DNA from: Leptolyngbya sp. FACHB-261 | GTDB lineage: Bacteria > Cyanobacteriota > Cyanobacteriia > FACHB-261 | Reading direction: 5' to 3' | NCBI RefSeq assembly: GCF_014696065.1 | Contig: NZ_JACJPL010000027.1 | Span: forward strand, 62,001-126,000 | DNA length: 64,000 nt | Part shown: positions 4,830 through 38,739 of the stretch, in pieces | How positions within the stretch are numbered: position 1 is the first letter of the stretch | How the letters are laid out: the number at the start of each line of letters is the position of its first letter | Made by a program: the position numbers and the translations under genes | The notes under the pieces: model-generated | The model's input: only the letters and a program-made list of their open reading frames with translations | What the model was told of the DNA's origin: nothing | Database searches by the model: none

Positions 4830-5363
4830 TTAATCAGGAGCAGCTAGGGTGCCATCACCAACCCCAGCCTCCCGCAGCCGTTTAGCCCCTATGTTGCGGC
4901 TCAACACGGCTAAACCGGCAAGATGGGCTTGTAAACCAGCAGTACTGGCGCAGCAATCAGTCAAGACAACGGGCTCAATGCCAATATCAAACAAATCCAT
5001 CGCGATCTTTAGCACACACATATCTGTGTCGATCCCAGCGACAAAGATTCGCTCAAAATGCTGTTCTTGCAGATAGCGGCAAAGCTCGTCTGGAATGCCA
5101 CAAACTCCGGATTTAGCAAAGACAAAATCTGGTTTGATAAAAGGTTCAAGCTCTGTAGCCAAACGCGTCTCCGGCTCAGATTCGCAACCCTGCCAATTCA
5201 GCAGGCGGTAGTAAGGGCCATCAACCCGGTTGACGAACCGCGTAAACAGAACGGGCTCATGCTGATGCCGCTCTAGCAAACAGGCAATCCGCTGTGGAAT
5301 GTGGTGTGTAAAGTCGTTGATGAAACCGGATTGAACATCAACTACCAGTAATGGCTCAGCCAT
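4830..5363 (-). CDS. Isochorismatase-like cysteine hydrolase in the NRPS operon
   Basis: A 177-residue alpha/beta hydrolase of the isochorismatase-like superfamily. The catalytic triad of the family is visible as Asp9 (V-V-D-V-Q), Lys84 (F-A-K-S-G-V) and Cys116 (D-T-D-M-C-V), so it is a cysteine-type amidohydrolase (nicotinamidase/N-carbamoyl hydrolase-like) rather than a true isochorismatase, which lacks the cysteine. No aryl carrier domain is fused. It starts 40 bases after the last NRPS gene ends, on the same strand. Its substrate is unknown; processing or detoxifying the peptide product, or supplying a precursor, are both possible. Confidence 0.85.
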   Translation of the reverse strand: MAEPLLVVDVQSGFINDFTHHIPQRIACLLERHQHEPVLFTRFVNRVDGPYYRLLNWQGCESEPETRLATELEPFIKPDFVFAKSGVCGIPDELCRYLQEQHFERIFVAGIDTDMCVLKIAMDLFDIGIEPVVLTDCCASTAGLQAHLAGLAVLSRNIGAKRLREAGVGDGTLAAPD

Positions 5364-5403
5364 AGAAAACTTTACCTAACAAACTTATTTAGCAAATTCT
5401 CAT

Positions 5404-8400
5404 TCAAGGCTCTAGCTGAGCCTTCTCAAGGCATTCCTGGAGCTGTTGAGCCAGAACCTGAACCTGAGGCTTTCTCAACAGAGACAGGTGGTTGCCTGGG
5501 ACTGAATAAACTTTCACACCTTCCAAGGCTAATTGCCCCCACCCCAGGGTAGGATCCCGCCTTGCTTGTGGGTCTTGGTCACTGGTTCTAAATAAAGCGA
5601 TTCGGCCTGGATAGACCTGGGGTTGGTAAGCGAGCGCAGCTTGACTATTTGCCCGAAACACCTTCAGCATCGGGGCAATAGTCAGCTCGTTCAGGATACG
5701 ACGCTTGGACTCATTGGGTATGAGGTTGGCCTTAGATTTTTGCTTTTTGCCGGGTGCCCTGATCAGGTGCAAATAGTCTAGAAGAAACCGCCAGGCAAAG
5801 GGCGCTACTGTGGCGAACAAGAATTTGAAAACCTGAAAAACACCCGGTTGATTCCGTTTTGCTGGTACTGGCGTATCTAACAGAGCGAGCAGAGCAACTT
5901 GCTGCCCCTGCCTCCAAAACTGTTGAGCCATTTCAAAAGCAACCAAGCCACCAAACGAGTATCCTCCCAGATAATAGGGGCCCTGGGGCTGAATTTTACG
6001 CAAGGCTTCGATGTAATAGCTTGCCATATCCTCAATCCGGGACTGCGGCGTCTCCCCGCTTAGACCGAGGGGTTGCAAACCATAGAAGGGCTGTTTTTTG
6101 CCTAGATGAAGCGATAGTTCGTAGTAAGGAAAAATCATCCCTAGTACTGGATGCACACAGAAGAAGGGCGGCTTGGCACCTTCAGATTGCGCACCCTCAG
6201 CTTGCAGAGGAACAAGCGGCGACCAAGTTGATGGGCCAGCTTGAGTGACGGCCTTTGCTAGCTCTTCAACCGTTGGTTTTAGAAAAAACGTCGATAGAGA
6301 AAGCGGCTGCTCAAATTGTTGATTCACTTGCGCGATCAAGCGCATTGCCGTGAGGGAATCTCCCCCTAACTCAAAGAAGTTATCTCGAACGCTAATCCGC
6401 TCAATTTTAAGGACTTCAGCCCAAATCTGTGTGAGTTTTGCTTCGGTTGGCGTGCGAGGAGCAACCCAGTTTTTTTCTGATTCAAACCGAGCCGGATTCG
6501 CTACGCTCAACGCCTGACGGTCTATTTTGCCAGCAGATGTTAGAGGCAATGTTGATAGGAACACAAACGCAGATGGCAGCATGTAAACTGGCAGCATCTT
6601 TCTTGACCAAGCCTGCAACTCTGCCTTGTTCAGTTCTTGTCCAGGTTGCAAGACAATATAGGCTATTAAGCGTCTACCTGAATTTTCTTCACAGGCAACC
6701 ACAATAGCCTGTTGTACCTTCGGATGCTGGTTGAGCCGAGTTTCAATCTCCCCTAGCTCAATTCGATATCCTCGCAGTTTGACCTGCTGATCCACTCGCC
6801 CCAAAAACACCAAACGGCCATCGGCTTGATAGCGAGCCAAATCACCTGTCTTGTAGAGCCGTGCACCTGGTTTTGAGCTGAAGGGATGAGGTAGGAATCG
6901 TTCAGCCGTCAAATCAGGCCGATTGAGATAGCCACGGGCCAGCCCCTCGCCACCAATGTATAGATCACCAGTCACGCCAATGGGTACAGGCTGCAATTGA
7001 GCATTCAGAACATAGATTTCTGTGTTAGCAATCGGTCGCCCTAGAGTAGGGGTAGTGTCATTACTCAGTTGATTATTGGATTGGTCATTGAATTGCTCAA
7101 TTGCAGCCCAAACCGTCGCCTCAGTTGGTCCATAGGCATTGAAAAACTCACGACCGAGGGACCATTGTTGCGCCAATTGAGCAGAACAGGCTTCACCAGC
7201 AGATACTACAGTCTGAAGCATCGGTAAGTCTTCGGCTGGTAGCACTGACAACAGTGCTGGTGGTGCCGTCAGGTTGGTAATTCGCCAGGCTTGCAAGCAT
7301 TCCGTTAAACCAGCAATGTCCCTCAGGGTTTCTGGTGCAGGCAAACACAATGTTGCCCCTGAGCATAGAGCCATTACCAGCTCAAAAACAGAGGCGTCAA
7401 AGCTGAGGGAAGCAAACTGTAGAATCCGATGGTGGGGTTGTAGATTGAATTGAATTTGCGCTTTTGCTAGATTACAAAGCCCCTGGTGTTGAATCAAAAC
7501 TCCCTTGGGTCTGCCGGTCGAACCAGAGGTGTAAATGAGGTAAGCCAGGTTGTTGCCTGTCACTGGGCTGGTCGGATTTTCCTGAATCTGCAGAGTAAGT
7601 TTTGACTCCAGAAGATCCAAACAGACCGCCTGGCCCGAATACTCTGGCAATCGTCTCAGTAAGTGTTCCTGTGTGAGCAGGATAGACACTTCTGCATCCT
7701 GGAGCATGAATTCCAAACGCGCTTGAGGATAAGTGGGGTCAAGGGGAACATAGGCTCCTCCAGCCTTAAGAATGGCAAGCAGCGCCACGACAGCCTGTAC
7801 AGAACGTTCCAGATATAGGCCAACCAGAACATCAGGCCCAACGCCAAGCTGCTGCAAATAGTGAGCCAATCGGTTAGCACGGTGGTTCAATTCTCGATAG
7901 GTCAACGGCCCATTTTTAGACAGCAAAGCTGTGGCATTAGGTGCTCGGTCTACTTGGGCCTCAAACACCTGATGAATACAGCAACGAACACAGGTTTCCT
8001 TATGGTAATTTGCCTGAGTCTGATTCCAGCCCAGTAGGATTTGTTGTTCAGCTAGTGTCAGAATCGGCAAACTCAATAAGCGCTGTTTAGGGTCGCGAAC
8101 AATCCCTTCCAACAGGACTTGAAAATGGCCCAGAAGTCTGCTGATTGTGCTGGCTTCAAACAGGTCAGTGCTGTAAACAATTTTACCCCTCAGCCCCTCA
8201 GGGTAATCCCACAAATGCAATTCCAAGTCAAATCGTGCTGTCTTATTCTCAAACGAGAAGGGACTTAGCTTGAGATCCAGTAAATCTAAACCTTCCAGGG
8301 GTGCGTTTTGCAGAGCAAACACCACCTGAAACAAGGGGTTGCTGCTCAGATCGCGCTCTGGCTGCAATGCTTCTACCAGCTTTTCAAATGGCAAATCTTG

Positions 8401-9414
8401 GTGCGTGTAGGCCCCTAAAGTGACTTCTCGCACACGTCCCAACAATTCCTCAAAACTAGGATTGCCAGCAAGGTGAAGCCGTAGCACTAAACTGTTGGCA
8501 AAGAAGCCAATCAACCCCTCAATTTCACTGCGATTGCGGTTGGCAATTGGTGAACCAACTGCAATATCTTCCTGCCCTGAATAGCGGCAGAGCAAAACCT
8601 GGAATGCAGCCAGCAGAGTCATGAACAGTGTCACGCCCATCCTCTGGGAAAGGGCTTCTAAGGCTTGGCTCAACGACTTGGGCAGAATCAGCCACTGCTG
8701 TTCACCCTGATAACTGGGGGCCGATGGCCGAGGTCGATCAGTCGGCAGGTTCAACCTGGAAACACCCTGCAATTGCTGGCGCCAGTAGACTAGCTGTTGC
8801 TCTAAAATCTCACCTTGTAACCATTGGTGTTGCCAATCGGCGAAGTCAGCATATTGCAGGGGTAGCTCCGGCAAAGGCGACGATTGCCCACGCACAAAGG
8901 CTGTATAGAGAGCCGTTAGTTCTCGGATTAAAATGCCACTGGACCAGCCATCAGCAACAATGTGGTGCATGTTCAGCAGCAGCACCTGATCGGCCTCGTC
9001 GAGTTGCAATAGGGTGACTCGTAACAAGGGGCCTTGAGCTAGCTGAAAGGGTCGTTGGCCTTCCTGTGTGGCTAAATGTTGAGCTTCTACCTCGCGTTCA
9101 GCTCTTGGCAACCGCCGCAGATCAATCACTGGCAAGGGCAGGCTCAAGCTGGGCGCAATTACTTGCATCAACTGGCCCTTTACCGGCACGAAAGTTGTGC
9201 GCAGCACTTCATGCCGACGCACGATTTCGTTAAAGGTTTGCTTCAAGGCCCTTTGATTTAGGGTGCCTACCAGACGAATTGCAGCAGGGACATTATAAAA
9301 GGGATGATTGGGAACTAGTTGATCAAGAAACCACAACCGTTGTTGTGCAAATGAGGCTGGAAATACGAAAACCTCCGCTTCTGACTCAGAAACTGCCAAG
9401 CTATCCCCAATCAT
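5404..9414 (-). CDS. NRPS module 4 (C-A-PCP-TE), terminating
   Basis: A 1336-residue termination module. The condensation domain (about 15-450) has the intact H-H-I-V-A-D-G motif. The adenylation domain (about 480-985) has L-I-Y-T-S-G-S-T-G. Its ten specificity positions read by eye are D-A-F-T-V-A-A-V-W-K, close to Phe/Tyr-type codes (for example DAWTVAAVCK) but not an exact known match. The carrier domain has L-G-G-D-S-L (about 1045). The thioesterase (about 1085-1330) has the nucleophile motif G-Y-S-F-G-G, an Asp in L-L-D-T-P and a His in P-G-N-H. The start overlaps the previous stop as ATGA. It lacks an N-methyltransferase and an epimerase. It should add the fourth residue and release the peptide by hydrolysis or cyclisation. 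Confidence 0.93.
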   Translation of the reverse strand: MIGDSLAVSESEAEVFVFPASFAQQRLWFLDQLVPNHPFYNVPAAIRLVGTLNQRALKQTFNEIVRRHEVLRTTFVPVKGQLMQVIAPSLSLPLPVIDLRRLPRAEREVEAQHLATQEGQRPFQLAQGPLLRVTLLQLDEADQVLLLNMHHIVADGWSSGILIRELTALYTAFVRGQSSPLPELPLQYADFADWQHQWLQGEILEQQLVYWRQQLQGVSRLNLPTDRPRPSAPSYQGEQQWLILPKSLSQALEALSQRMGVTLFMTLLAAFQVLLCRYSGQEDIAVGSPIANRNRSEIEGLIGFFANSLVLRLHLAGNPSFEELLGRVREVTLGAYTHQDLPFEKLVEALQPERDLSSNPLFQVVFALQNAPLEGLDLLDLKLSPFSFENKTARFDLELHLWDYPEGLRGKIVYSTDLFEASTISRLLGHFQVLLEGIVRDPKQRLLSLPILTLAEQQILLGWNQTQANYHKETCVRCCIHQVFEAQVDRAPNATALLSKNGPLTYRELNHRANRLAHYLQQLGVGPDVLVGLYLERSVQAVVALLAILKAGGAYVPLDPTYPQARLEFMLQDAEVSILLTQEHLLRRLPEYSGQAVCLDLLESKLTLQIQENPTSPVTGNNLAYLIYTSGSTGRPKGVLIQHQGLCNLAKAQIQFNLQPHHRILQFASLSFDASVFELVMALCSGATLCLPAPETLRDIAGLTECLQAWRITNLTAPPALLSVLPAEDLPMLQTVVSAGEACSAQLAQQWSLGREFFNAYGPTEATVWAAIEQFNDQSNNQLSNDTTPTLGRPIANTEIYVLNAQLQPVPIGVTGDLYIGGEGLARGYLNRPDLTAERFLPHPFSSKPGARLYKTGDLARYQADGRLVFLGRVDQQVKLRGYRIELGEIETRLNQHPKVQQAIVVACEENSGRRLIAYIVLQPGQELNKAELQAWSRKMLPVYMLPSAFVFLSTLPLTSAGKIDRQALSVANPARFESEKNWVAPRTPTEAKLTQIWAEVLKIERISVRDNFFELGGDSLTAMRLIAQVNQQFEQPLSLSTFFLKPTVEELAKAVTQAGPSTWSPLVPLQAEGAQSEGAKPPFFCVHPVLGMIFPYYELSLHLGKKQPFYGLQPLGLSGETPQSRIEDMASYYIEALRKIQPQGPYYLGGYSFGGLVAFEMAQQFWRQGQQVALLALLDTPVPAKRNQPGVFQVFKFLFATVAPFAWRFLLDYLHLIRAPGKKQKSKANLIPNESKRRILNELTIAPMLKVFRANSQAALAYQPQVYPGRIALFRTSDQDPQARRDPTLGWGQLALEGVKVYSVPGNHLSLLRKPQVQVLAQQLQECLEKAQLEP

Positions 9415-12400
9415 TGATGTTTGCTTTCTTGCAGGGAGGACAGTTTCATACGACGAGCCTCCCGAGAAACAGGCACTAGAGCTGGCGTTTGGCTGATCAC
9501 AGCACTGTTTTTAAGAGACTCGATTTCCTGGGATAACTGTGCGATGGTTGGAGCCTCAAATAACGTGAGCAGAGGAAGCTCCACCTGTAGAGCATCCCGC
9601 AACCGAGACACTAACTGTGTTGCTAGTAGCGAATGCCCTCCCAGCGCAAAGAAATTGTCGTGGATGCCCACCTGTCCTCGCCCCAAAACCTCTGCCCACA
9701 ACTGAACTAACACTGTTTCCAGTTCGCTTCTTGGCCCTTGCGCTGTCCCAGCTCTGCCTGTCAGCCCACTTTCCGGCCTAGGCAAAGCTGCCCGGTTCAC
9801 TTTGCCATTGGCGTTCAACGGTAGCTTCTTCAGCACCACCCACTCGGTCGGCAGCATGTACTCCGGCACGCGCTCGGCCAATTGCTGCTGCACCTGACGC
9901 ACCACTGCCCGGCTCAGTTTGCCTTGCAAAGGATTGTTCGTGTATCTCCTTTGCGGCCCTAAAGCTGTAGATACTAGCGTGGGCCAAACCGGATTCACGC
10001 CCTGCTTCACCAAGATCACGTCATAACTGCCATCTTGCCCAGCCGCCCAGCTCACCTGTACCTCGTAGCCCAGTTCCTTGCCCAAATCCCACCAGACCTG
10101 CGGCTCTATGCCTTGCCCCCGCAATCTCTGCACGGCCTCGCGCATCTGCCCAGCAGTTGCCGGTCCCTGGGCACTCGCTAGCCAGGTAGCCACCTGCACC
10201 GCTGCCAAGACTCGGGCGTTCGGCACCCCTCGAATTGCAACTTGGGGCAGTGACTGCACCAACTGCTGACGCACTTGCTCCAGAGTCAACTGCTGCTGCG
10301 CCCACTCTTGCCATATGGGGCCTGCGTCAGCAGGGGGACTTGCCTTAGCCGGAGTGCCGATATGCAGCAGCACATCATAGCGGAACTGGCTCAGCTCGTT
10401 GTGATGCCATCCCCGCTCTAGCTGCACCTCCACTCGCTCCACCCGCTCCCACTGCTCACCCAACCAACTAAACAAGTCTGGGTCTACCAACAGCTCCGCT
10501 TCCTCAAACACCTCCCGTTCCACTCGCTGCTGCAACTGCTCTCGGCTCATTGAGGCTGGCGCTTGCTCCAACTGCACCCACGACTGAAAAGCCTCCAGCA
10601 GTGGCAGGCTCCTCACATCGCCCACAAACACTATCCCTCCCTCGGCTGTCGCTGCCACTGCTCCTGACAGCACCTCCAGCAGATACTCCTGGCTGGGGAA
10701 ATACTGCACTACGGAGTTGAGAATCACAGCATCAAAGCGCCCTGCCTCTATCCCCTCGAACTCGTGCGCTAGCCGGTTCAGCAACTTCACTTGCTCCAGC
10801 CCTCGCAGCTCCAACCGCTGCTGCACGTACTCCAGGCTCTGCTGCGAGAAGTCCGTCCCCCAATACTCTCGGCTCTGCGGCGCTAGCTCGAACAGCAGCA
10901 GACCGGTGCCGCAGCCGAGCTCCAACACTCGCTCCAGCTTGTGCTGACGCAACCGCTCCACTCGGTCTTCCAGCCACTGCTGCATCTGAGCCAGGGGAAT
11001 GGTCTCGCCACTGCTGCTGTTCCAGCCGATGAAGTTGTGCTCTGATTCTGTCGCTGGGGTGAGGGGGCTGGCTTGTGCCTGCTCGTAGACCTGCTCGTAC
11101 AACTGCTGCCACTGCTGGAGTTGCGCCTGGCTCTGGTCCTGATTCTGGTTGAGCGGGTCGAGGTGCAAGCTCAAGTAGGCCACCAACTGCGGCTGACCGG
11201 GCTGGTCTTCGCGCAGCAGTACAGCGGCCTCTCGCACGGCTGACCCTTGCCCTGCCCCTTGCCCTGCCTGCTCCCCTAAATTTTGCAGGAGAAGGCTCTC
11301 CAGTTCACCCGTCTCAATCCGATAGCCCCGCAGCTTCACTTGCTGATCCAGCCGACCGAGGAATTGCAGGCTGCCATCTGGCTGGTAGCAACAGCAGTCG
11401 CCGCTGCGATAGAGGCGAGCGCCGGGTGAGCGGCTGAAGGGGTGAGGGACAAAGCGCTCTGCTGTGAGGTCGGGGCGGTTAAGGTAGCCACGAGCGAGGC
11501 CAGACCCTGCGATGCACAATTCTCCTGGCACGCCTATGGGGACTGGCTGCAACTGCTCATCCAGCACATACACCTCAACATTGCTAATGGGATGACCTAA
11601 TGAAGGGCTTAGCGAAGGGTTGGCAGAGGCCATCTCACTAACAGGAACTAAACCCGAGGTTGTCACTACGGTATTTTCAGTAGGGCCGTAGTTATTGATC
11701 AAGGCAAAAGGTTGGCGAACTTGAGGATATTGATGCAGTTTGTCGCCGCCGGTTAGCAACGTTCGCAAAGCAGCTTGCTCAGGCCAAGCTAAAGTCAGCA
11801 TTTGTTCTGCCAAAGGAGTCGGCAAGAAGCTAATGGTAATGGCATTATCTAGTAGCCAATCGCGCAATTTCTCTGGTGACAGACGAGTTTCCTGATCCGG
11901 CAAGTAAATGCTGGCTCCAGCTGCAAGATAAGGCCAGATTTCCCAGGCGCAGGCATCAAACGCTGTTCCAGCTAACTGAGTGGCTCGGTCGTGAGGCGAA
12001 ACAGCAAAAGTTTGCTGGTGCCAAGAGACTAGATTTAACAAGCCTTGGTGGCAAACCTCAACCCCTTTAGGCTGACCCGTTGAGCCAGAAGTGTAGATGA
12101 CGTAAGCAAGATTATCGAGAGTGATAGAACTCGCAGGATTTGCTTCACTCTGCTGTGTGATCATGCTCCAATCTAGATCCAAATTAATCACTTTTACCGG
12201 CTGTTTAGCCGGTTCAGTCAATAGTTTGGCGAAGGTTTCAGCCCAGCGATCCTGCGTGAGCAAGACAGCAACCTGGGCATCCTGAAGCATAGAATTTAGA
12301 CGCTTTTCAGGATGAGTTGGGTCAAGAGGCACATAGGCCCCACCTGCTTTGAGAACCCCGAGCCAGACAGCAACCATTTCTAAGGAGCGATCCATACAGA

Positions 12401-14192
12401 TGCCCACTAAGCTCTCTGGACCAACGCCCAAGCCCTGTAGATAATGGGCAATTTGATTACTCTGATTATTGAGTTGCTGATAGGTTAGAGAGCGATTTTG
12501 ACTGGCAACTGCAATTGCTTCAGGAGTGCGCCTAGCCTGCGCCTCGAATAAGCAGTGAACGCAGTCATTTTGGAGATAGTTTTTCTGTGTATTGTTCCAT
12601 TCGACCAGCAGTTGCTGCCGCTCGGTGGCCGTTAACAGAGGCAGATCCAAAAGACGTTGTTGCGGATCGGTGACAATACCCAGCAATAAGGTTTGAAAGT
12701 GGCCGATTAGCCGAGTAATAGTGCTGGCATCGAACAGATCGGTACTGTAGACCAACATGCCCCTTAGCCCTTGCCAATCCTCTCCCCATAAGCCATTGAA
12801 TCCCTCGGAGCGCTCCCACAAATGCAGTTCTAAATCGAAGCGAGTTGTATCTGTCTGGGGCTGAATTGGACTGAGGGTTAGACCTGGCAATTTCAGAGCT
12901 TGCATGGGCGCATTCTGTAGCGCAAATACCACTTGAAACAGCGGGTTACGGCTTAGATCCCGCTCCGGCTGCAACTCCTCCACCAACTTCTCAAACGGTA
13001 AGTCCTGGTGGGCATAGGCCCCTAATGCTACCTCCCGCACTCGCTCCAACAACGCCTCAAAGCTAGGATTACCCGCAAGGTCCACTCGCAGCACTAGGCT
13101 ATTGACGAAGAAGCCAATGAGTCCTTCAATCTCACTGCGATTGCGATTAGCAATGGGGCAACCGACAGCAACGTCACTCTGTTGCGTGTAGCGATATAGC
13201 AGGATCTGAAATGCAGCCAGCAGGGTCATGAACAGAGTCACCCCCGCTTTCTGCGATAGCGCCTCTAAAGCAATAGTTAAGCTCTGGGATAGTTCTATCG
13301 CCTGAGTTGCGCCTTGATAACTCTGAACAGCTGGACGTGGCCGATCGGCCGGTAGATTCAGGGCAGGCAGATTATCTAATTGTTGTCGCCAATAGGCCAA
13401 CTGATTGTCTAGAACTTCACCGTGCAACCACTGCCGTTGCCAACAGGCAAAGTCAGCATATTGAAGGGGTAATTCCGGTAAAGGTGAGGCTTGCTGGTCC
13501 GCAAAGGCTGGATATAAGGTCGCCAACTCACGGATAAGCACCCCGAATGACCAGCCATCCGAGACAATATGATGCATGTTCAGCAACAGCACATGCTCTG
13601 TTGCCTTGAGCTGTAACAGGGCGGCTCGAAACAGTGGTCCCTGAACCAAATCAAATGGGCGTTGTGCGTCTGCGGCAGCTAATTTTTGGACCTCAGTTTC
13701 CTGCTCAAGAGCCGGTAATTGCTGCAAATCGATCACCGGTAAAGGCACATTCCAGTTATCAGAAATGACTTGAATGGGTTGCCCCGCTTGCAACGCAAAG
13801 GTAGTCCGCAAAGACTCGTGGCGACGCGCGATTTCGCTAAATGTTTTTGCTAATGCAGAGCGGTTCAGTAAGCCAGTTAAACGCACAGCGGCAGGCATAT
13901 TGTAAAAGGCATTGCCTGGTGCTAACTGGTTGAGGAACCACAGCCGTTGTTGCGCAAAAGAAAGCGGCAGATTTTTGCCACGCCGGTCAACCTTCGAGCT
14001 AAGAGAGGTCGCATTTAAATCAACGCTAGCATTACTAATAAATGCAATGATTTCAGCTTTGCGAGCACCTAACTCAGCTCGAAGCTGTGGCGTGAGAACA
14101 CCCTCAGGCGCATTGCAACGTAACCGCTCGCCCTCAACCAGAATTTGCACATCTAAACTGCGCAGGTAAGTTAAAAATTCAACGGTCTTCAA
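9411..14192 (-). CDS. NRPS module 3 (TubC-type dock-C-A-NMT-PCP), predicted N-methyl-Leu
   Basis: A 1593-residue elongation module. Residues 1-55 match a TubC-like N-terminal docking domain (V-E-F-L-x-Y-L-R-S-L, L-R-C-N-A-P-x-G-V-L-T, R-K-A-E-I-I). Next come a condensation domain with H-H-I-V-S-D-G, and an adenylation domain whose ten specificity positions read D-A-W-F-L-G-N-V-V-K, the standard Leu code. An N-methyltransferase (L-E-L-G-C-G-T-G-L-L) is inserted between late A-domain motifs, then N-A-N-G-K and a carrier domain (L-G-G-H-S-L). TTG is used as start and overlaps the stop of the upstream gene; the complete docking domain supports it. A 1,024-base block covering the methyltransferase is nearly identical to one in module 1. 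Confidence 0.94.
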   Translation of the reverse strand: MKTVEFLTYLRSLDVQILVEGERLRCNAPEGVLTPQLRAELGARKAEIIAFISNASVDLNATSLSSKVDRRGKNLPLSFAQQRLWFLNQLAPGNAFYNMPAAVRLTGLLNRSALAKTFSEIARRHESLRTTFALQAGQPIQVISDNWNVPLPVIDLQQLPALEQETEVQKLAAADAQRPFDLVQGPLFRAALLQLKATEHVLLLNMHHIVSDGWSFGVLIRELATLYPAFADQQASPLPELPLQYADFACWQRQWLHGEVLDNQLAYWRQQLDNLPALNLPADRPRPAVQSYQGATQAIELSQSLTIALEALSQKAGVTLFMTLLAAFQILLYRYTQQSDVAVGCPIANRNRSEIEGLIGFFVNSLVLRVDLAGNPSFEALLERVREVALGAYAHQDLPFEKLVEELQPERDLSRNPLFQVVFALQNAPMQALKLPGLTLSPIQPQTDTTRFDLELHLWERSEGFNGLWGEDWQGLRGMLVYSTDLFDASTITRLIGHFQTLLLGIVTDPQQRLLDLPLLTATERQQLLVEWNNTQKNYLQNDCVHCLFEAQARRTPEAIAVASQNRSLTYQQLNNQSNQIAHYLQGLGVGPESLVGICMDRSLEMVAVWLGVLKAGGAYVPLDPTHPEKRLNSMLQDAQVAVLLTQDRWAETFAKLLTEPAKQPVKVINLDLDWSMITQQSEANPASSITLDNLAYVIYTSGSTGQPKGVEVCHQGLLNLVSWHQQTFAVSPHDRATQLAGTAFDACAWEIWPYLAAGASIYLPDQETRLSPEKLRDWLLDNAITISFLPTPLAEQMLTLAWPEQAALRTLLTGGDKLHQYPQVRQPFALINNYGPTENTVVTTSGLVPVSEMASANPSLSPSLGHPISNVEVYVLDEQLQPVPIGVPGELCIAGSGLARGYLNRPDLTAERFVPHPFSRSPGARLYRSGDCCCYQPDGSLQFLGRLDQQVKLRGYRIETGELESLLLQNLGEQAGQGAGQGSAVREAAVLLREDQPGQPQLVAYLSLHLDPLNQNQDQSQAQLQQWQQLYEQVYEQAQASPLTPATESEHNFIGWNSSSGETIPLAQMQQWLEDRVERLRQHKLERVLELGCGTGLLLFELAPQSREYWGTDFSQQSLEYVQQRLELRGLEQVKLLNRLAHEFEGIEAGRFDAVILNSVVQYFPSQEYLLEVLSGAVAATAEGGIVFVGDVRSLPLLEAFQSWVQLEQAPASMSREQLQQRVEREVFEEAELLVDPDLFSWLGEQWERVERVEVQLERGWHHNELSQFRYDVLLHIGTPAKASPPADAGPIWQEWAQQQLTLEQVRQQLVQSLPQVAIRGVPNARVLAAVQVATWLASAQGPATAGQMREAVQRLRGQGIEPQVWWDLGKELGYEVQVSWAAGQDGSYDVILVKQGVNPVWPTLVSTALGPQRRYTNNPLQGKLSRAVVRQVQQQLAERVPEYMLPTEWVVLKKLPLNANGKVNRAALPRPESGLTGRAGTAQGPRSELETVLVQLWAEVLGRGQVGIHDNFFALGGHSLLATQLVSRLRDALQVELPLLTLFEAPTIAQLSQEIESLKNSAVISQTPALVPVSREARRMKLSSLQESKHQ
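10367..11390. repeat. Methyltransferase block, copy in NRPS module 3
   Basis: This 1,024-base block aligns without any insertion or deletion to 18451-19474 (constant offset 8,084). I count about two dozen mismatches by eye, near 98% identity, and long runs are identical. It spans the end of the A domain and most of the inserted N-methyltransferase. Flanking adenylation sequence is much more diverged, so the block marks a recent duplication or gene conversion. Confidence 0.9.
12883..13240. repeat. Condensation-domain block, copy in NRPS module 3
   Basis: 358 bases aligning without gaps to 16344-16701 (offset 3,461), with about 8 mismatches counted by eye. It encodes the C-domain region with P-I-A-N-R-N-R-S-E-I-E-G-L-I-G-F-F and the following E-R-D-L-S-R-N-P-L-F-Q. 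The matching region of module 4 is visibly more diverged. Confidence 0.88.
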
Positions 14193-17100
14193 AACTCTAT
14201 CTCCTCCCGAGCCTCGGTCGCAGTCTTTGCCACTGCCTCATCAGGCTGACCTCCTCTGAAGGCCCATCCCACTGTCTCGACATAATTCGCTAGACCGGCA
14301 ACACTGGGTGCCTCGAATAAAGTGAGAACCGGCACTTCTACGCCAAGCGCATTGCGCACCCGCGAGATCAGTTGAGTTGCTAGCAGTGAATGCCCCCCTA
14401 ACTCGAAAAAATTGTCATAGATACCAATTTGTTTCTGTTCTAAAACTTCTGCCCAGAGGTTGACTAATATCACCTCAATTGCCGTGCGAGGGGCAACATA
14501 CTCGCTCTGCCTTTCCTGGCGAGATGCAGGTGCTGGTAGAACACGACGGTCTACTTTGCCATTCGGTGTTAGCGGCAACGCCTCCAGCACCACTAAGGCT
14601 GAGGGAAGCATGTATTCCGGCAGTTTTTCCTTGAGCCAATGACGTAGGTTTGGGTAGGTTAAAGTCTGTCCCTGTTTTGACACAGTATTTGGCACAAGAT
14701 AAGCAACTAGTTGTTTGCTTTTAGAGGTGTCTCCGCGAAGCATGACAACCACCGCCTGTACCTCTGGATGTTGAGCTAAAACTGCCTCAATTTCTGCTGG
14801 CTCTACGCGGAATCCCCGCACCTTAACCTGGGTGTCCAGGCGACCTAGAAACTCCAGATTGCCATCTGGTTGGCAGCGGGCCAAATCGCCAGTTCTGTAG
14901 AGACGGGCTCCCGGCACTGAGCTAAACGGATTGGGAATAAAACAGGCGGCCGTCAGCTCAGGTTGATTCAGATAGCCACGAGCCAGGCCATCACCCCCGA
15001 TGTAAACTTCTCCTGGAATTCCAATAGGAACCAGTTGCAGTTGAGTATCGAGAATATAAATTTGGGTGTTGGCAACAGGCTGACCAATGGGTATGGAGCT
15101 AGCGCCTGATAAGGACTCAGGCAGCTTGTACCAGGACGAAAAAGTTGTGCCTTCGGTTGGCCCGTAAAGATGCAATAGCTGCTGAGGTGAGCCACTCTCT
15201 AATACTGACTGCATCCAGCTAGAATCAGTCACCTCACCGCCAAAAAGCAAACAGCGGACCGAAGCAAAAGCCTCAGGCACGATACTTGCAAGCTGCTTAA
15301 ATAAAGCGGTTGTCAAGAACAGGACACTGATTTGCCGTTGACGAATTTGAGCTGCAAAAGTTTGAGGTGAGAGAAGCGTTTCCCTACGCAAACCAATGAG
15401 CTGAGCTCCATGCAGCAACGCAGCCCAAATCTCGAAAATTGCTGCATCAAAAGAGGTATTCGCAGCTTGAACTACCCTGTCAGAAGCTTTGAGCTGAATG
15501 TAATTGCTATTCAACACCAGACGAGTGATCGCCTGATGAGCAATCGCCACTCCTTTAGGCTGTCCTGTGGAGCCAGAAGTGTAGAGAATGTAGGCAAGAT
15601 TGTGAGCCGTAACAGAGCTGAGCAGGTTGCCATTATCCTGTTGGGCGATCGCTGTGCAGTTGTCTAAGCAGATGACTAAAGCCTCAGGTCTGCCCAGATA
15701 TTCAAGCCAGCGGTTTTGGGTGAGTAGTACAGACGGCCGAGCATCTTGAAGCATAAACTTCAAGCGCTCTTGCGGATAGCTAGGATCCAAGGGCAAATAG
15801 GTACCACCTGCTTTGAGGATGGCCAATAACCCAATCACCATCTGCATTGATTGCTCTAGGCAAAGGCCAACTGGCACTTCTGGAGCAACGCCTAGACGTT
15901 GTAGGTAGTGAGCTAATTGGTTAACCCTACAATTCAGTTCTTGGTAGGTAAGTTGTCCATCCTCAAAAGCAACAGCTACTGCGTCAGGAGTGCGTGCAAC
16001 CTGGGCTTCGAATAAATGATGAACACAACTTTCTTGGGGATAATCAGTCTGTGTGTTATTCCATTCAATTAGAATTTGTTGCTGTTCAGCTAGTGTCAGT
16101 AGTGATAATTCCAGCAAGCGTTGTTGCGGATTAGCAACGATACTCTCCAGCAGAGTTTTAAAGTTTTGTAATAAGCGGCGGATAGTGCTGGCGTCGAAGA
16201 GATCAGTGCTGTAAATCAACATGCCCCTCAGCCCCTCTGAGGGTCTACCCCAAAGCCCGCTTAGCGCCTCTGAGCCTTCCCAAAGAAACTCTAGATCGAA
16301 GCGAACTGTCCTCACTTCTAGCGGTAGAGGACTTAGAGTTAAACCTGGCAATTTCAGGGCTTGCATGGGCGCATTCTGCAGCGCAAATACCACTTGAAAC
16401 AGCGGGTTACGGCTTAGATCCCGCTCCGGCTGCAACTCCTCCACTAGCTTCTCAAACGGTAAGTCCTGGTGGGCATAGGCCCCTAATGCTACCTCCCGCA
16501 CTCGCTCCAACAACGCCTCAAAGCTAGGATTACCCGCAAGGTCTACTCGCAGCACTAGGCTATTGACGAAGAAGCCAATGAGTCCTTCAATCTCACTGCG
16601 ATTGCGATTAGCAATGGGGCAGCCGACAGCTACGTCACTCTGTTGCGTGTAGCGATATAGCAGGATCTGAAATGCAGCCAGCAGGGTCATGAACAGGGTC
16701 ACCCCACCCTTCTGTGATAGCGCTTCTAAAGCCGCTGTTAAATCCTGAGGCAAATCTAAGATTTCTGAAGCCCCACGATGGGTCTGTGTAGCCGGACGGG
16801 GCCGATCGGTAGGCAGGTTGAGGGCCGAAAGACCGCTGAGTTGTTGTCGCCAATAGGTCAGCTGATCGTCCAGGATTTCGCCCTGCAACCACTGCCGTTG
16901 CCAGCAGGCAAAATCAGCGTATTGCAGAGGTAATTCGGGTAGAGGCGAGGCTTGCTGATTCGCAAAGGCAGTATAAAGAATTTCTAGCTCCTGAACCAGC
17001 ACACCAATTGACCATTCATCGGAAACAATATGATGCAGGGTCAGTAAAAGTAGGTGTTCTGTCTCTCCTAATCGCAACAGCTTCAAGCGCAACAAAGGGC

Positions 17101-17524
17101 CTTGAGTGAGATCAAAGGAAGATTGTGCTTCAGCCGCAGCTAGCTCTTGGCATTGGACCTCTTGCTCGTTGGAATTCAACGATTGTAAATCAATGACTGG
17201 CAGGGGTAGATTCACCTCTGGCGCAACCACCTGCATCAATTGCTCGTTTACCAAAGTAAAGCTTGTGCGCAGCACTTCATGACGGCGCACAATTTCATTG
17301 AACACCTGATGCAGGGCAGCAACATTTAGTGAACCGCTCAAGCGCAGTGCAGCAGGCATGTTGTAGAAGGGATTGCCAGGCGCAACTTGATTGAGAAACC
17401 ACAGGCGCTGTTGAGCAAATGAAGCAGGAAAAACAAATACTTCTTCCTGACGCTCAACTGAGTCGAGCAACTCCGAACCGTTCCCTAAAGCTGAGAAGGA
17501 ATGCTTAGAAAGAAACTGGGTCAT
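14189..17524 (-). CDS. NRPS module 2 (C-A-PCP), predicted Ile/Val
   Basis: A 1111-residue elongation module. The condensation motif reads H-H-I-V-S-D-E instead of the usual H-H-x-x-x-D-G; the catalytic second His is kept. The adenylation specificity positions read D-A-F-F-L-G-L-T-F-K, resembling codes for Ile or Val in cyanobacterial synthetases (for example DAFFLGVTFK). The carrier domain has L-G-G-H-S-L. The C-terminus ends in a short acidic tail A-R-E-E-I-E-F, very like the E-R-E-E-V-E-F tail of module 1, which may be a docking peptide. The ATG start lies 15 bases after module 1 ends and is preceded by purine-rich AGGAAAAGGGAA. No tailoring domain is present. Confidence 0.93.
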   Translation of the reverse strand: MTQFLSKHSFSALGNGSELLDSVERQEEVFVFPASFAQQRLWFLNQVAPGNPFYNMPAALRLSGSLNVAALHQVFNEIVRRHEVLRTSFTLVNEQLMQVVAPEVNLPLPVIDLQSLNSNEQEVQCQELAAAEAQSSFDLTQGPLLRLKLLRLGETEHLLLLTLHHIVSDEWSIGVLVQELEILYTAFANQQASPLPELPLQYADFACWQRQWLQGEILDDQLTYWRQQLSGLSALNLPTDRPRPATQTHRGASEILDLPQDLTAALEALSQKGGVTLFMTLLAAFQILLYRYTQQSDVAVGCPIANRNRSEIEGLIGFFVNSLVLRVDLAGNPSFEALLERVREVALGAYAHQDLPFEKLVEELQPERDLSRNPLFQVVFALQNAPMQALKLPGLTLSPLPLEVRTVRFDLEFLWEGSEALSGLWGRPSEGLRGMLIYSTDLFDASTIRRLLQNFKTLLESIVANPQQRLLELSLLTLAEQQQILIEWNNTQTDYPQESCVHHLFEAQVARTPDAVAVAFEDGQLTYQELNCRVNQLAHYLQRLGVAPEVPVGLCLEQSMQMVIGLLAILKAGGTYLPLDPSYPQERLKFMLQDARPSVLLTQNRWLEYLGRPEALVICLDNCTAIAQQDNGNLLSSVTAHNLAYILYTSGSTGQPKGVAIAHQAITRLVLNSNYIQLKASDRVVQAANTSFDAAIFEIWAALLHGAQLIGLRRETLLSPQTFAAQIRQRQISVLFLTTALFKQLASIVPEAFASVRCLLFGGEVTDSSWMQSVLESGSPQQLLHLYGPTEGTTFSSWYKLPESLSGASSIPIGQPVANTQIYILDTQLQLVPIGIPGEVYIGGDGLARGYLNQPELTAACFIPNPFSSVPGARLYRTGDLARCQPDGNLEFLGRLDTQVKVRGFRVEPAEIEAVLAQHPEVQAVVVMLRGDTSKSKQLVAYLVPNTVSKQGQTLTYPNLRHWLKEKLPEYMLPSALVVLEALPLTPNGKVDRRVLPAPASRQERQSEYVAPRTAIEVILVNLWAEVLEQKQIGIYDNFFELGGHSLLATQLISRVRNALGVEVPVLTLFEAPSVAGLANYVETVGWAFRGGQPDEAVAKTATEAREEIEF
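16344..16701. repeat. Condensation-domain block, copy in NRPS module 2
   Basis: Partner of the block at 12883-13240, in the same orientation. The flanking parts of the two condensation domains, including the active-site motif, differ, so only this segment was copied or converted recently. Confidence 0.88.
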
Positions 17525-17539
17525 TTCCCTTTTCCTGTT

Positions 17540-20500
17540 TCAAAATTCCACTTCCTCTCGCTCAGCCAACGAGAAGCTCATGGGTGATAAACCGTTGGTG
17601 GCCCACCCGACTGTTTCGATGTGTTCAGCCAAAGCCGCTGCACTGGGAGCCTCAAACAAAGCCTGTAGCGGTATCTCGACCTGAAGCACATCCCGCAGAC
17701 GCGAGATTAGCTGTGTTGCTAGTAGCGAATGTCCGCCCAGAGCAAAGAAATTGTCGTGGATGCCTACTTGACCTTGGCCTAGCACCTCTGCCCACAACTG
17801 CACCAGGACAGCTTCTAATTCACTCTCAGGGACTCTGGCTGCCCCTTTCTCTGGTAGTTCTGAGCGCTCAGGTGCAGGCAAAGCCCGGCGATCGATCTTG
17901 CCATTTGCCGTCAGCGGCAGGGTCGCCAGTACCAACCAGCTACTTGGCAGCATGTACTTTGGCACTTGCTCTGCTAGTCGCTGCTGCAACTGCCGCACGA
18001 CCTCGCGGCTCAGCTTGCCTTGCAAGGGATTGTTTGTGTATCTCTTTTGCTCGCTTCTTGCTGGAGCTGAGATACATACCGGATCCAGCGCTTGGCTTAC
18101 AAAGAGCACATCGTAACTGCCATCAACTCGATCCGCTGTCCAGCTCACCTGCACCTGGTAGCCCAACTCCTCGCCCAGTTCCCACCAAACCTCCGGCTCC
18201 ACCCCAGACTGGCGCAGCTTTTGCAGGGTCTCTCGCATCTGTCCAACTGTCCTGGGTCCCTTTTTAGCAGCTAGCCAGTCTGCCGTCCGAACAGCAGCGG
18301 CAACGCGCGCGTTAGCAACACCTCTGATGACCAACTGCGTTAGCTGTCCTTCGGTTAACTGCTGCCGCACAGCCAATGGGCTGGGCCCTGCTTCAGTCCA
18401 CTGCTGCCATTCGATTTCGACAGAGCTATTCCTTCGGCTGCCAATGTGTAGCAGCACATCGTAGCGGAACTGGCTCAGCTCGTTGTGATGCCACCCCCGC
18501 TCTAGCTGCACCTCCACTCGCTCCACCCGCTCCCACTGCTCACCCAACCAACTAAACAAGTCTGGGTCTACCAACAGCTCCGCTTCCTCAAACACCTCCC
18601 GTTCCACTCGCTGCTGCAACTGCTCTCGGCTCATTGAGGCTGGCGCTTGCTCCAACTGCACCCACGACTGAAAAGCCTCCAGCAGTGGCAGGCTCCTCAC
18701 ATCTCCCACAAACACCACCCCTCCCTCGGCTGTCGCTGCCACCGCTCCTGACAGCACCTCCAGCAGATACTCCTGGCTGGGGAAGTGCTGCACCACCGAG
18801 TTGAGAATCACAGCATCAAAGCGCCCTGCCTCTATCCCCTCGAACTCGTGCGCTAGCCGGTTCAGCAACTTCACTTGCTTCAGCCCTCGCAGCCCCAACC
18901 GCTGCTGCACGTACTCCAGGCTCTGCTGCGAGAAGTCCGTCCCCCAATACTCTCGGCTCTGCGGCGCTAGCTCGAACAGCAGCAGACCGGTGCCGCAGCC
19001 GAGCTCCAACACTCGCTCCAGCTTGTGCTGACGCAACCGCTCCACTCGGTCTTCCAGCCACTGCTGCATCTGAGGCAGGGGAATGGCCTCGCCACTGCTG
19101 CTGTTCCAGCCGATGAAGTTGTGCTCTGATTCTGTCGCTGGGGTGAGGGGGCTGGCTTGTGCCTGCTCGTAGACCTGCTCGTACAACTGCTGCCACTGCT
19201 GTAGCTGCGCCTGGCTCTGGTCCTGATTCTGGCTGAGCGGGTCGAGGTGCAAGCTCAAGTAGGCCACCAACTGCGGCTGACCGGGCTGGTCTTCGCGCAG
19301 CAGCACGGCGGCCTCTCGCACGGCTGACCGTTGCCCTGCCCCTTGCCCTGCCTGCTCCCCTAAGTTTTGCAGGAGAAGGCTCTCTAGCTCGCCCGTCTCA
19401 ATCCGATAGCCCCGCAGCTTCACTTGCTGATCCAGCCGACCGAGGAATTGCAGGCTGCCATCTGGCTGGTAGCAAGCTAAATCACCAGTTCTATACAGAC
19501 GGTCGCCCGGCTCCTGGCTGAAGGGGTGGGGAACGAAGCGCTCTGCTGTGAGGTCAGGGCGGTTGAGGTAACCGCGAGCGAGGCTGGTTCCAGCGATGCA
19601 CAGTTCCCCTGGCATGCCTACCGGTACCGGCTGCAACTGCTCATCCAGCACATATACTTTGACCTTGGCGATAGCTTGCCCCAGCGGTGGCTTGCCGCCA
19701 TTTGGCACAACAGCAACAGTTGACCAAACAGTTGCTTCGGTCGGGCCATAAGCATTGAACAGCCGACGTCCAATAGACCAGCGCTCGGCGATTGCCTCAG
19801 AGCAGGCTTCTCCAGCCACGATCACGGTTTTGAGAGCTGGTAACTCGGCTGCGCTGAGCCGCGACAGGACGGCGGGCGGCAGAGTTACATGGGTGATCTC
19901 CCAAGTTCGCAATCGCTGCGCCAAGTCAGGCCCAGGTAACAGAGTATGTTTTGGCGCTAGGTAAAGTGCCGCGCCTGCGGTCAGGGCCATTGCGACTTCA
20001 AAGATTGAGGCGTCAAAGCTCAGAGAGGCGAATTGCAGAACCCGGTCACCCGGTTGCACCTGAAAAGTTTTCGCCTGAGCTTGAATCAAATTGCTCAAAC
20101 CCTGATGCTGCACCAGAACACCCTTGGGTTTACCCGTTGAACCCGAGGTGTAAATTACATAGGCGAGATTGGCAGTTGTTTCGTTAGCCTCATTGAAAGT
20201 GAGGTTTTGGTTGCTCTGCTGCGCGATGGCCTGCCAGTCAGAATCTAAACAAACAACCTGCGCTCTGCCTGCTGCCTGCGCTTCACATATTGGTAAATGC
20301 TTCAAGTGCTGCTGCGTGAGTAAGAGAGGCACTCGCGCATCCTCAAGCATGAATTTCAAACGCTCTTGAGGGTAGCTGGGATCGAGCGGTACATAGGCAC
20401 CCCCTGCTTTGAGAATGGCTAGTAAAGCCACGATCATCTGGACAGACGGTTCAAGGCAGAGACCAACGAGTACCTCTGGTCCAACTCCTAGCTGTTGTAG

Positions 20501-20728
20501 GTAATGGGCTAGTTGATTGGCGCGCCTATTTAATTCCTGATAGCTGAGTTGCTCATGATCAAAGGGCCCACCTTCAAACCGCACGGCCACAGCTTCGGGT
20601 GCTTGTTCTACCCAGGATTCAAACCAACGGTGCAGCTTCGTCTCTGCGCGCAACTGGGGGGCAATACCAGGGGCAACAATAGTTTCGCTCAAGGAATGGT
20701 CAGCAGAAAGTGCAGAGGCGATATGCAA
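17540..20728 (-). CDS. NRPS module 1 (A-NMT-PCP), initiating, N-methylating
   Basis: About 1062 residues. There is no condensation domain; the protein opens directly into an adenylation domain (V-I-Y-T-S-G-S-T-G-K-P-K-G near residue 195), so it is the loading module. Specificity positions read D-A-F-T-I-A-A-V-W-K, aromatic-like (compare DAWTIAAVCK for Phe). An N-methyltransferase (L-E-L-G-C-G-T-G) is inserted before N-G-K-I-D-R. The carrier domain has L-G-G-H-S-L, and the tail ends E-R-E-E-V-E-F. I choose TTG at 20728 because GGAGGAG lies 4 bases upstream; TTG at 20743 is an alternative and there is no nearby ATG. It is the first gene of the operon. Confidence 0.92.
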   Translation of the reverse strand: MHIASALSADHSLSETIVAPGIAPQLRAETKLHRWFESWVEQAPEAVAVRFEGGPFDHEQLSYQELNRRANQLAHYLQQLGVGPEVLVGLCLEPSVQMIVALLAILKAGGAYVPLDPSYPQERLKFMLEDARVPLLLTQQHLKHLPICEAQAAGRAQVVCLDSDWQAIAQQSNQNLTFNEANETTANLAYVIYTSGSTGKPKGVLVQHQGLSNLIQAQAKTFQVQPGDRVLQFASLSFDASIFEVAMALTAGAALYLAPKHTLLPGPDLAQRLRTWEITHVTLPPAVLSRLSAAELPALKTVIVAGEACSEAIAERWSIGRRLFNAYGPTEATVWSTVAVVPNGGKPPLGQAIAKVKVYVLDEQLQPVPVGMPGELCIAGTSLARGYLNRPDLTAERFVPHPFSQEPGDRLYRTGDLACYQPDGSLQFLGRLDQQVKLRGYRIETGELESLLLQNLGEQAGQGAGQRSAVREAAVLLREDQPGQPQLVAYLSLHLDPLSQNQDQSQAQLQQWQQLYEQVYEQAQASPLTPATESEHNFIGWNSSSGEAIPLPQMQQWLEDRVERLRQHKLERVLELGCGTGLLLFELAPQSREYWGTDFSQQSLEYVQQRLGLRGLKQVKLLNRLAHEFEGIEAGRFDAVILNSVVQHFPSQEYLLEVLSGAVAATAEGGVVFVGDVRSLPLLEAFQSWVQLEQAPASMSREQLQQRVEREVFEEAELLVDPDLFSWLGEQWERVERVEVQLERGWHHNELSQFRYDVLLHIGSRRNSSVEIEWQQWTEAGPSPLAVRQQLTEGQLTQLVIRGVANARVAAAVRTADWLAAKKGPRTVGQMRETLQKLRQSGVEPEVWWELGEELGYQVQVSWTADRVDGSYDVLFVSQALDPVCISAPARSEQKRYTNNPLQGKLSREVVRQLQQRLAEQVPKYMLPSSWLVLATLPLTANGKIDRRALPAPERSELPEKGAARVPESELEAVLVQLWAEVLGQGQVGIHDNFFALGGHSLLATQLISRLRDVLQVEIPLQALFEAPSAAALAEHIETVGWATNGLSPMSFSLAEREEVEF
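18451..19474. repeat. Methyltransferase block, copy in NRPS module 1
   Basis: Partner of the block at 10367-11390, with the same orientation and no gaps. Identity stops abruptly at both ends: upstream in the methyltransferase/A10 linker and downstream in the A8 region just before the substrate-binding half of the adenylation domain. The specificity-determining part of the A domain is therefore outside the homogenised block. Confidence 0.9.
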
Positions 20729-21161
20729 ATGACTCCTCCGCAAAGCTGCAATGAGGCGCTCGGTTTCGTTAGGAGGCTATCCCTTGTCTGCGGCTTAAAC
20801 ATCCATCGCAGAGGGGATGTCTGATATCCAGCATTAACATTGGCCTAGAAGCAGAATATTCTATTAAATTAGATGAATTTTCTACACTTTTTCTAACGTT
20901 TACACCCTTAAATTTCACACAGACTACTGAGGATTAAACCGGTGAAGAGCTGTGCCCTTTATCTGAAGGGTCTATGATATTCGGGTGATTATTTGCATAA
21001 GTTTCAGCTCAAACTAGTTAGCCACTCTTAGATAAGATGATGCTTTTTTGCGCTCAAAATGCTCGTTAGTTTAAGCAAAAATTTTCTAGAAAAATTCATC
21101 AAGCTATTTTCTATAAATTTCTATCTGGACCTGGCCCAGTTTGAAGGGGGAGAACACAGCA
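20729..21161. other. Divergent control region between the NRPS operon and the TldE-like gene
   Basis: About 430 bases, AT-rich in the middle, separate the first NRPS gene (minus) from the TldE-like gene (plus). Promoters for both must lie here or nearby. A TAGAAT hexamer on the minus strand near 20860 could be a -10 box, but no convincing -35 accompanies it. I see no clear palindromic operator. Confidence 0.35.
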
Positions 21162-37002: not shown

Positions 37003-37638
37003 TCAAGGCAAAGGTTCTCCGGAACCTGTCTGAGCTAGGTGCTGGCGCCAGCGCGAAACAGCGAGCCAACCGACCACCAGCAACAGAATCAAGCCACCAA
37101 GTTGCGCACTCCAAGCCACCAGCTTCTCTAAGGGCACCAGTGCGCCCACGAAGTAAGCCAGACTTACCGTTAGTGCTCCCCACACCAACGCACCAGCGGC
37201 GTTAAACACGAGGAAGCGACGGTAGGGCATCTGGGCAATGCCGGCCATCGGTCCAGCAAAAATCCGCAGTAACGCAACAAACCGACCAAAGAAGACGGCT
37301 TGGTCGGCATTTTCGTTGAATTTAGTGCGGGCTTTTTCCAGTTCTTCAGGCCCCAACTTAAAGACCCGACCAACTTTGACCAGCAGCGGCCAGCCGCCCC
37401 AGGCTCCCAACCAGTAGCCGACGTTATCACCCAGAATGGCACCAGCCGTGGCGCTAAGCATCACCAGCCAGTAATTGAGATCACCGTTACCGGCTAGGAA
37501 GCCACCCACTAGCGTAATTGTTTCGCCAGGAACGGGAATTCCAGCATTTTCTAGTAGAATGCCGCAGAAGACAGTCCAGTAGCCATATTGCTGAGCAAGT
37601 TCCTGGATGGTTTCTAAAGTCAAAAACTCGAAGGACAT
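37003..37638 (-). CDS. DedA family membrane protein
   Basis: 211 residues with several hydrophobic segments and the DedA/SNARE-associated core: E-N-A-G-I-P-V-P-G-E-T, then G-D-N-V-G-Y-W-L-G, a charged F-x-x-N-A-D-Q-A-V-F-F-G-R-F and a final membrane span near the C-terminus. DedA proteins are inner-membrane proteins involved in lipid carrier (for example undecaprenyl phosphate) flipping and membrane homeostasis. It follows two sRNA-like elements and precedes rpsU on the same strand, with about 60 bases between stop and the rpsU start. Confidence 0.9.
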   Translation of the reverse strand: MSFEFLTLETIQELAQQYGYWTVFCGILLENAGIPVPGETITLVGGFLAGNGDLNYWLVMLSATAGAILGDNVGYWLGAWGGWPLLVKVGRVFKLGPEELEKARTKFNENADQAVFFGRFVALLRIFAGPMAGIAQMPYRRFLVFNAAGALVWGALTVSLAYFVGALVPLEKLVAWSAQLGGLILLLVVGWLAVSRWRQHLAQTGSGEPLP

Positions 37639-37766
37639 TCAGGGCGCCTGCCTTTGAAATGATGGGGGCATTAATAAATTGTTACTTGTCCTCATCTTTG
37701 CCTGAGTACCCTGGTGTGTCAACTGTGTCTTCTGTTACTACTCCCATGATAGTTAACCGCAGAAAC

Positions 37767-37868
37767 AAAAACCCCCCGGAGACCCGGGAAGGGTTTCTGG
37801 GGGTGAATCAGGGTGCATCTACCACTCATTCCTTCTAGGAAGGACCATCTCGTCCGGAAACTCAACAA
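37767..37868 (-). ncRNA. sRNA-like element A with terminator
   Basis: Read on the minus strand, the element runs from about 37868 through a small hairpin (CCTTC-CTA-GAAGG) and a conserved core (37824-37797) to a GC-rich stem that ends CCGGGGGGTTTTTG. The core is identical over 28 bases to that of element B. The terminator stem (CCCCCAG... with ...CTCCGGGGG) differs in its middle part. No good reading frame or Shine-Dalgarno site accompanies it, so a small non-coding RNA is the simplest reading. The transcript start is not determined. Confidence 0.5.
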
Positions 37869-37996
37869 CGGCAGGCCGATTTCTTTGAGGACCGGTTGCG
37901 CCTCAGTTTCTAGGGGACGCGACGGTGGCACAACAGGAGTCCATGTCTCCTACAGCGGCCAACCCACTTAAAGTGCCCAATATCAGCGCCAAAAAA

Positions 37997-38098
37997 TAAA
38001 AACCCCCCGAAAGTCCAAGGACTCTGGGGGTGAATCAGGGTGCATCTACCATTCCTTCCTTCTAGGAGGACAACTCCCATCAGGACGGCTAGCATCCA
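37997..38098 (-). ncRNA. sRNA-like element B with terminator
   Basis: Minus-strand homologue of element A about 230 bases away. Its conserved core is 38051-38024, with a preceding TCCTAGAAGGA-type hairpin and a terminator stem ending TTCGGGGGGTTTTTA. The outer parts align with element A only loosely while the core is identical, as expected for an RNA family in which the core carries function. A TTGCCA hexamer about 45 bases upstream could be part of its promoter. Confidence 0.5.
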
Positions 38099-38370: not shown

Positions 38371-38739
38371 ATGCAACAGCTTTTACTGACCTTTGAACAA
38401 ATTTTCCGCCAGAAGGTTTTGATGATTGCTCTGATCAGCCTCATCCAACTATCTGGTCTATTTCTATTCTTGCAGCCTGGCTATGCAGCAGAAACTCCGG
38501 GTCAGTCCTTGAGTGCGGGTGAAAAGGTGGAGCGAGCCTACGATGGCTACAGCCAAAACTCAGGTGTGCGAGAAGAGACTTACCTACAAAAAGTAGATGC
38601 AGGTCAGGATCCTGAAAAGCTCCCCGAGCCTTACAAGCGCATCACTAGTCTCGACGGTAAAGAAGTTCCTAAAACCAGCGCCTTAGAATCAACGGTGAGC
38701 AAAGTACGAAATCTAGTAGACCGAGTAACTGAAGAGTAG
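38371..38739 (+). CDS. Small secreted or membrane-anchored hypothetical protein
   Basis: About 122 residues. I choose ATG 38371 because AGGAG lies 8 bases upstream; the open frame itself reaches 38317. The N-terminus has a hydrophobic span (V-L-M-I-A-L-I-S-L-I-Q-L-S-G-L-F-L-F-L) followed by G-Y-A-A-E, which looks like a signal peptide cut after A-A. The mature part is charged and helical (K-V-E-R-A-Y-D-G-Y, and V-S-K-V-R-N-L-V-D-R-V at the end). I do not recognise the family. A bidirectional terminator follows. Confidence 0.65.
   Translation: MQQLLLTFEQIFRQKVLMIALISLIQLSGLFLFLQPGYAAETPGQSLSAGEKVERAYDGYSQNSGVREETYLQKVDAGQDPEKLPEPYKRITSLDGKEVPKTSALESTVSKVRNLVDRVTEE

Follow-up and report, generated by a model that had tools for sequence, protein, structure and literature searches.

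The window (the whole 64-kb stretch of DNA that was analysed) carries a tandem pair of NsiR1 small RNA (sRNA) genes on its minus strand, spaced 227 nt apart, each with its own DIF1-type promoter and terminator. NsiR1 is a known family of cyanobacterial regulatory RNAs, whose name refers to nitrogen-fixing heterocyst cells, and the open interest lies in the host and in the distribution of the family, that is, in a HetR-linked sRNA circuit without detectable nitrogenase. Genome surveys suggest that most cyanobacteria with HetR also carry NsiR1, whether or not they fix nitrogen. The features of the pair are as follows:

37765..37824, minus strand: NsiR1 copy 1, sRNA of about 60 nt including the terminator (RF02399, 45.0 bits)
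37796..37824, minus strand: identical 29-nt 5' part of copy 1, containing the 17-nt family core GGTAGATGCACCCTGAT (from the sequence)
37772..37791, minus strand: intrinsic terminator hairpin of copy 1, then TTTTTG (terminator-like stem and T-run)
37828..37842, minus strand: -10 region for copy 1 (around CCTTCCTAGAAGGAA), downstream of the DIF1 box and upstream of the RNA 5' end; this is the "CCTTC/GAAGG hairpin" discussed below
37853..37858, minus strand: DIF1 box TCCGGA, palindromic, -35 element of copy 1 (exact, 35 nt before the core)
37996..38051, minus strand: NsiR1 copy 2, sRNA of about 56 nt including the terminator (RF02399, 46.8 bits)
38023..38051, minus strand: identical 29-nt 5' part of copy 2 (from the sequence and the core search)
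38004..38021, minus strand: intrinsic terminator hairpin of copy 2, then a T-run (terminator-like stem and T-run)
38080..38085, minus strand: DIF1-like box TCCTGA, -35 element of copy 2 (one mismatch, same offset; position counted from the sequence and the alignment)

The two elements share 29 identical minus-strand bases, TGGTAGATGCACCCTGATTCACCCCCAGA, at 37824-37796 and 38051-38023, one more than the 28 claimed in the original prediction, which had correctly described them as paralogous. A search with a 24-nt piece of this core, allowing up to three mismatches, returned only these two sites in the 64 kb and none in 100 shuffles. The terminators are free-standing and different, as had also been described, with GC-rich hairpins at 37791-37772 and 38021-38004 whose stem sequences are unlike each other. 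Scanning the window with Rfam 15 gave two gathering-level matches, which are the two elements described here, both to RF02399 (NsiR1) on the minus strand and both covering the full model (1-60), with copy 2 at 46.8 bits and copy 1 at 45.0 bits against a gathering score of 39 bits. NsiR1 is a characterised base-pairing sRNA, which bears out the reading of the elements as regulatory RNAs; the suggestion that they were new is refuted by these matches, an Rfam search having been named in advance as the check. The small CCTTC/GAAGG hairpin with its AGGA is present as predicted (about 37828-37842 in copy 1 and 38055-38066 in copy 2), but it is not part of the RNA: it lies upstream of the 5' end defined by the Rfam model and thus belongs to the -10 region rather than being a ribosome site within the RNA. 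AGGA as a ribosome site was accordingly rejected, this being promoter DNA. A short reading frame or minigene in the core (ATG/TTG-GTA-GAT-GCA-CCC-TGA) was also rejected, because its wobble positions vary no more than its other positions and its start codon falls at or before the expected 5' end.

The pair sits between a DedA/VTT-domain gene (37003-37638, minus strand, downstream) and a divergent gene (38371-38739, plus strand) whose product is a small protein with a signal-peptide-like start. A DUF3352 gene follows farther out. Genes for DedA/VTT, small secreted and DUF3352 proteins were absent near NsiR1 in the other fetched loci, and these neighbours were therefore rejected as functional partners.

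In Nostoc sp. PCC 7120 a DIF1 box (TCCGGA) is located at -35 of each NsiR1 copy (PMC6133370), and in Nostoc DIF1 promoters have been shown to depend on HetZ, through which they respond to HetR (PMC7377430). No sigma-70 consensus promoter was found at either window copy, and a DIF1-type -35 box was. Upstream regions were compared at 290 NsiR1 sites with full flanks from 135 fetched loci, with offsets counted to the first G of GGTAGATG; the loci had been found mostly via the core sequence alone, and the promoter was not a selection criterion. Exact TCCGGA was present at 172 of the 290 sites, every time at -37 to -35 and never elsewhere in the upstream 70 nt, and AGAA.A is the conserved pattern in the columns from about -13 to -8. 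When loci were split by their titles (23 loci of unclear origin left out), the box was exact in 91 of 139 copies from heterocystous genera and had one mismatch in a further 34. Copies from named non-heterocystous lineages had the exact box in 54 of 102 cases and one mismatch in 45, together 99 of 102 at -35, compared to random-position backgrounds of 0.001 (exact) and 0.013 (up to one mismatch). Among the non-heterocystous copies, the DIF1 variant seen most often is TCCTGA (26 of 102 sites).

On comparative and folding evidence, the 5' part of the RNA is kept in sequence and the 3' part in predicted shape only, as expected for a base-pairing sRNA with a terminator. Each column of the 17-nt core has one base in at least 90% of the 290 sites, and at least 97% at all but three columns. 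Taking one copy per locus, 121 loci have 9 distinct 18-nt cores vs 119 distinct tails, a low core count that is partly built in because loci were mostly selected by exact core; every genome nevertheless has copies of this kind, and copies found by Rfam, not by the core pattern, show the same core. The 3' parts of these 121 loci, folded singly, form hairpins averaging -14.9 kcal/mol vs -5.7 kcal/mol for shuffles. RNAalifold on a MAFFT alignment of the same loci yielded no consensus stem, probably owing to misalignment of the variable stems.

In a set of 59 genomes, made up of the host plus relatives, all 32 with HetR carry NsiR1, two have NsiR1 with no detectable HetR, and 25 have neither. In this set nifH exceeds the cut-off in only 10 of the 34 NsiR1-bearing genomes, with a partial match in an eleventh, and thus NsiR1 tracks HetR, not nitrogen fixation; a tie between NsiR1 and nitrogen fixation was rejected for this reason. 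An even draw of 232 genomes from the class, overlapping the 59-genome set, gave 115 with both NsiR1 and HetR, 4 with NsiR1 only (including one that is 62% complete and one in 1200 contigs), 1 with HetR only, and 112 with neither (Fisher's test, p = 5e-60, a value not to be read literally since genomes were treated as independent, which they are not). The two exceptions examined (G006 and G020; loci L149-L152) have an intact NsiR1 core and a DIF1 box or its TCCTGA variant, with no detectable HetR, and the Chamaesiphon loci (L022, L096, L100) have NsiR1 with TCCTGA or TCCCGA boxes; HetR may have been lost secondarily, its place at DIF1 being taken by some other factor. In the literature searched, which is later work than the first descriptions (Ionescu 2010; Muro-Pastor 2014; Elhai & Khudyakov 2018), no statement was found that NsiR1 and HetR share the same distribution phylum-wide, and this coextension may already be known.

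The host is a cyanobacterium with a 6.95 Mb genome (97.7% complete) in which NsiR1 is multi-copy and partly tandem, comprising the window pair and at least three further loci. Five host loci reach E<=1.8e-5, four are above the cut-off, and there are weaker ones in addition. The host HetR gene is full length (S48 domain, 234.6 bits, with the HetR_C domain also found), and a HetP-family gene scores 103.6 bits. The best host matches to nifH (218.6 bits vs a cut-off of 394.35, the level of other NifH-like proteins) and nifD (47.7 bits vs 653.55) both fall below cut-off, and there is thus no sign of nitrogenase in the host, making heterocysts unlikely.

Several minor observations concern the same genome. 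Two diverged NsiR1 copies (L143, about 6350-6405, and L144:5867; 38 and 27 bits) have the core ATGCACCCTGATT and the terminator intact but lack a DIF1 box, and are possibly driven by other promoters. Another HetR homologue, with 51% identity to the full-length one, is truncated at a contig end (L147:2-541, the first bases of contig C18). Just upstream of hetR are two short frames with an RGSGR motif (L146:5039-5053 and 5504-5673; contig C4), one after a TCCGGA box at 5504 and the other ending exactly in RGSGR behind a hydrophobic stretch, and both are candidate patX genes.

The NsiR1 array of Nostoc sp. PCC 7120 lies upstream of hetF and comprises 12 tandem copies; the base-pairing sRNA they encode is roughly 60 nt long, depends on HetR and appears at an early stage, specifically in cells developing into heterocysts (PMC9045159). 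Nitrogen deprivation as the inducing signal, with dependence on HetR, is a hallmark of the family. There, NsiR1.1 is antisense to the hetF 5' UTR and inhibits hetF translation, and NsiR1.4 represses the hetP-like alr3234 (PMC9045159). The strongest NsiR1 of the host (L141, 61.5 bits) is likewise divergent to a CHAT-domain, hetF-like gene, whose product scores 588 bits against the HetF model, below the NCBIfam equivalog cut-off of 1200. Its 5' end is 178 nt from the start of the HetF similarity, and the fetched Nostocales arrays mostly have 176-189 nt. The window pair is not adjacent to hetF, the divergent position being occupied by this L141 copy of the same genome. Non-heterocystous lineages also have this divergent NsiR1/hetF pair, at other distances: Symploca (L037), Leptolyngbyaceae (L114), Phormidesmis (L040), Kaiparowitsia (L103) and Oscillatoriaceae (L085).

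Transcription of hetF in Anabaena starts at -256, which places nsiR1.1 within the hetF leader (PMC8406250). If the host start is as in Anabaena, the host leader would contain a stretch of 21 nt perfectly complementary to both window copies; a start within 178 nt of the start codon would leave no pairing site. The predicted duplex between the window core and this leader is -48.4 kcal/mol, compared to -29.0 kcal/mol for the best of 97 other host genes. This strength arises because a paralogous NsiR1 copy lies there and is not independent evidence for a trans target, so that the modelled duplex would indicate what is possible and not what happens. The HetP-like mRNA, considered by analogy with alr3234, was not supported as a target because its predicted pairing (-11.9 kcal/mol) is at background level, with 95 of the 97 background genes pairing equally well or better. 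When nsiR1.1 was taken out of a transcriptional fusion of hetF in Anabaena, expression altered only slightly (PMC8406250), and any effect would therefore be translational.

We consider it likely that HetR/HetZ-dependent NsiR1 copies repress hetF, and probably other mRNAs too, by base pairing, with expression and targets in the host inferred. When nitrogen is short, or in some other state that activates HetR, HetR/HetZ would turn on every DIF1 copy, perhaps in only some cells of the filament. The resulting NsiR1 RNAs would pair with the hetF leader via their shared unpaired 5' core, and lower HetF would then alter the level of HetR or cell division. In the host lineage the circuit would be part of a HetR programme distinct from heterocyst formation. 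The role of HetR in filamentous cyanobacteria that lack heterocysts has been described as a mystery (PMC11298460); deletions of hetR and of patX are available in one non-heterocystous laboratory strain, Leptolyngbya sp. BL0902 (PMC11298460). By a slight preference, we favour the broader view that NsiR1 is at root no heterocyst RNA: along with DIF1 promoters and patX, it would accompany HetR in all HetR-bearing cyanobacteria, would be older than heterocysts and, where nitrogenase is lacking, would act as a HetR-controlled brake on hetF and cell division.

Coming a little short of an even chance is a different account, in which both elements are NsiR1 but their targets are other mRNAs bound through the 17-nt core, hetF being regulated in cis only by its adjacent copy and the window pair doing separate work. 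The core is conserved far beyond what overlap with hetF needs (the 9 cores vs 119 tails at 121 loci), sibling NsiR1 copies in Nostoc hit different targets (PMC9045159), and most of the non-heterocystous NsiR1 loci found do not adjoin hetF. However, no target rose above background, the best background duplexes (-29.0 kcal/mol and weaker) being with unrelated genes.

It is very improbable that the copies are decaying, functionless remnants of a lost heterocyst programme, an idea suggested by a host without nifH or nifD above cut-off and by some of its further copies being without a DIF1 box (L005, L006). The window copies keep an intact core, a terminator and a correctly spaced -35 box, NsiR1 is kept in nearly all sampled HetR-bearing genomes, most of them without nifH, and the same 17 nt across so many lineages is not expected of remnants. 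Intergenic repeats that share a core would also be expected of a novel sRNA family distinct from NsiR1, or of a mobile or REP-like DNA element, but this reading can be practically dismissed, as the gathering-level matches to RF02399 refute it on the family question, promoter and terminator architecture is conserved around the copies, and no mobility features were seen.

The host copies resemble the array of PCC 7120 (PMC9045159, PMC8406250) in size, in the invariant 5' core UGGUAGAUGCACCCUGAU and variable terminator hairpin, in having a DIF1 promoter per copy and several copies per genome, and in the divergent placement of one copy relative to hetF, with equal spacing. They differ in that the host lacks nifH and nifD above cut-off and that the window pair, two copies 227 nt apart vs twelve, lies away from hetF. 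An NsiR1-like RNA is already reported from the non-heterocystous Limnospira: RNA162 of Limnospira indica PCC 8005 is an NsiR1-type sRNA of a filamentous organism that has hetR, forms no heterocysts and fixes no nitrogen, and is known from a radiation transcriptome, the passages that deal with it containing no survey of a tie to HetR (PMC8400943). Another DIF1-driven companion of HetR is the RGSGR gene patX, stated to occur wherever HetR does, behind a DIF1 promoter, including in species without heterocysts (Elhai & Khudyakov 2018, as cited in PMC11298460 and PMC7761841); unlike NsiR1, which is a non-coding RNA, patX encodes a HetR-inhibiting peptide.

Nearly every HetR genome sampled has NsiR1, which is easily recognised by its sequence tag and DIF1 promoter and for which hetF is a probable target. 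It could serve as a direct readout of the timing and cellular location of HetR activity in non-heterocystous species, and it offers a simple test of whether the heterocyst circuit arose from an older one.

Elsewhere in the window, a large non-ribosomal peptide synthetase cluster with three synthetases was read from the translations at 3640-20743; its parts include condensation, adenylation and methyltransferase-like domains, a thioesterase end and a phosphopantetheinyl transferase-like gene. Two near-identical stretches in neighbouring synthetase genes (10732-11112 and 18816-19196, minus strand, inside frames 9411-14192 and 17540-20743) suggest a recent module duplication or gene conversion.
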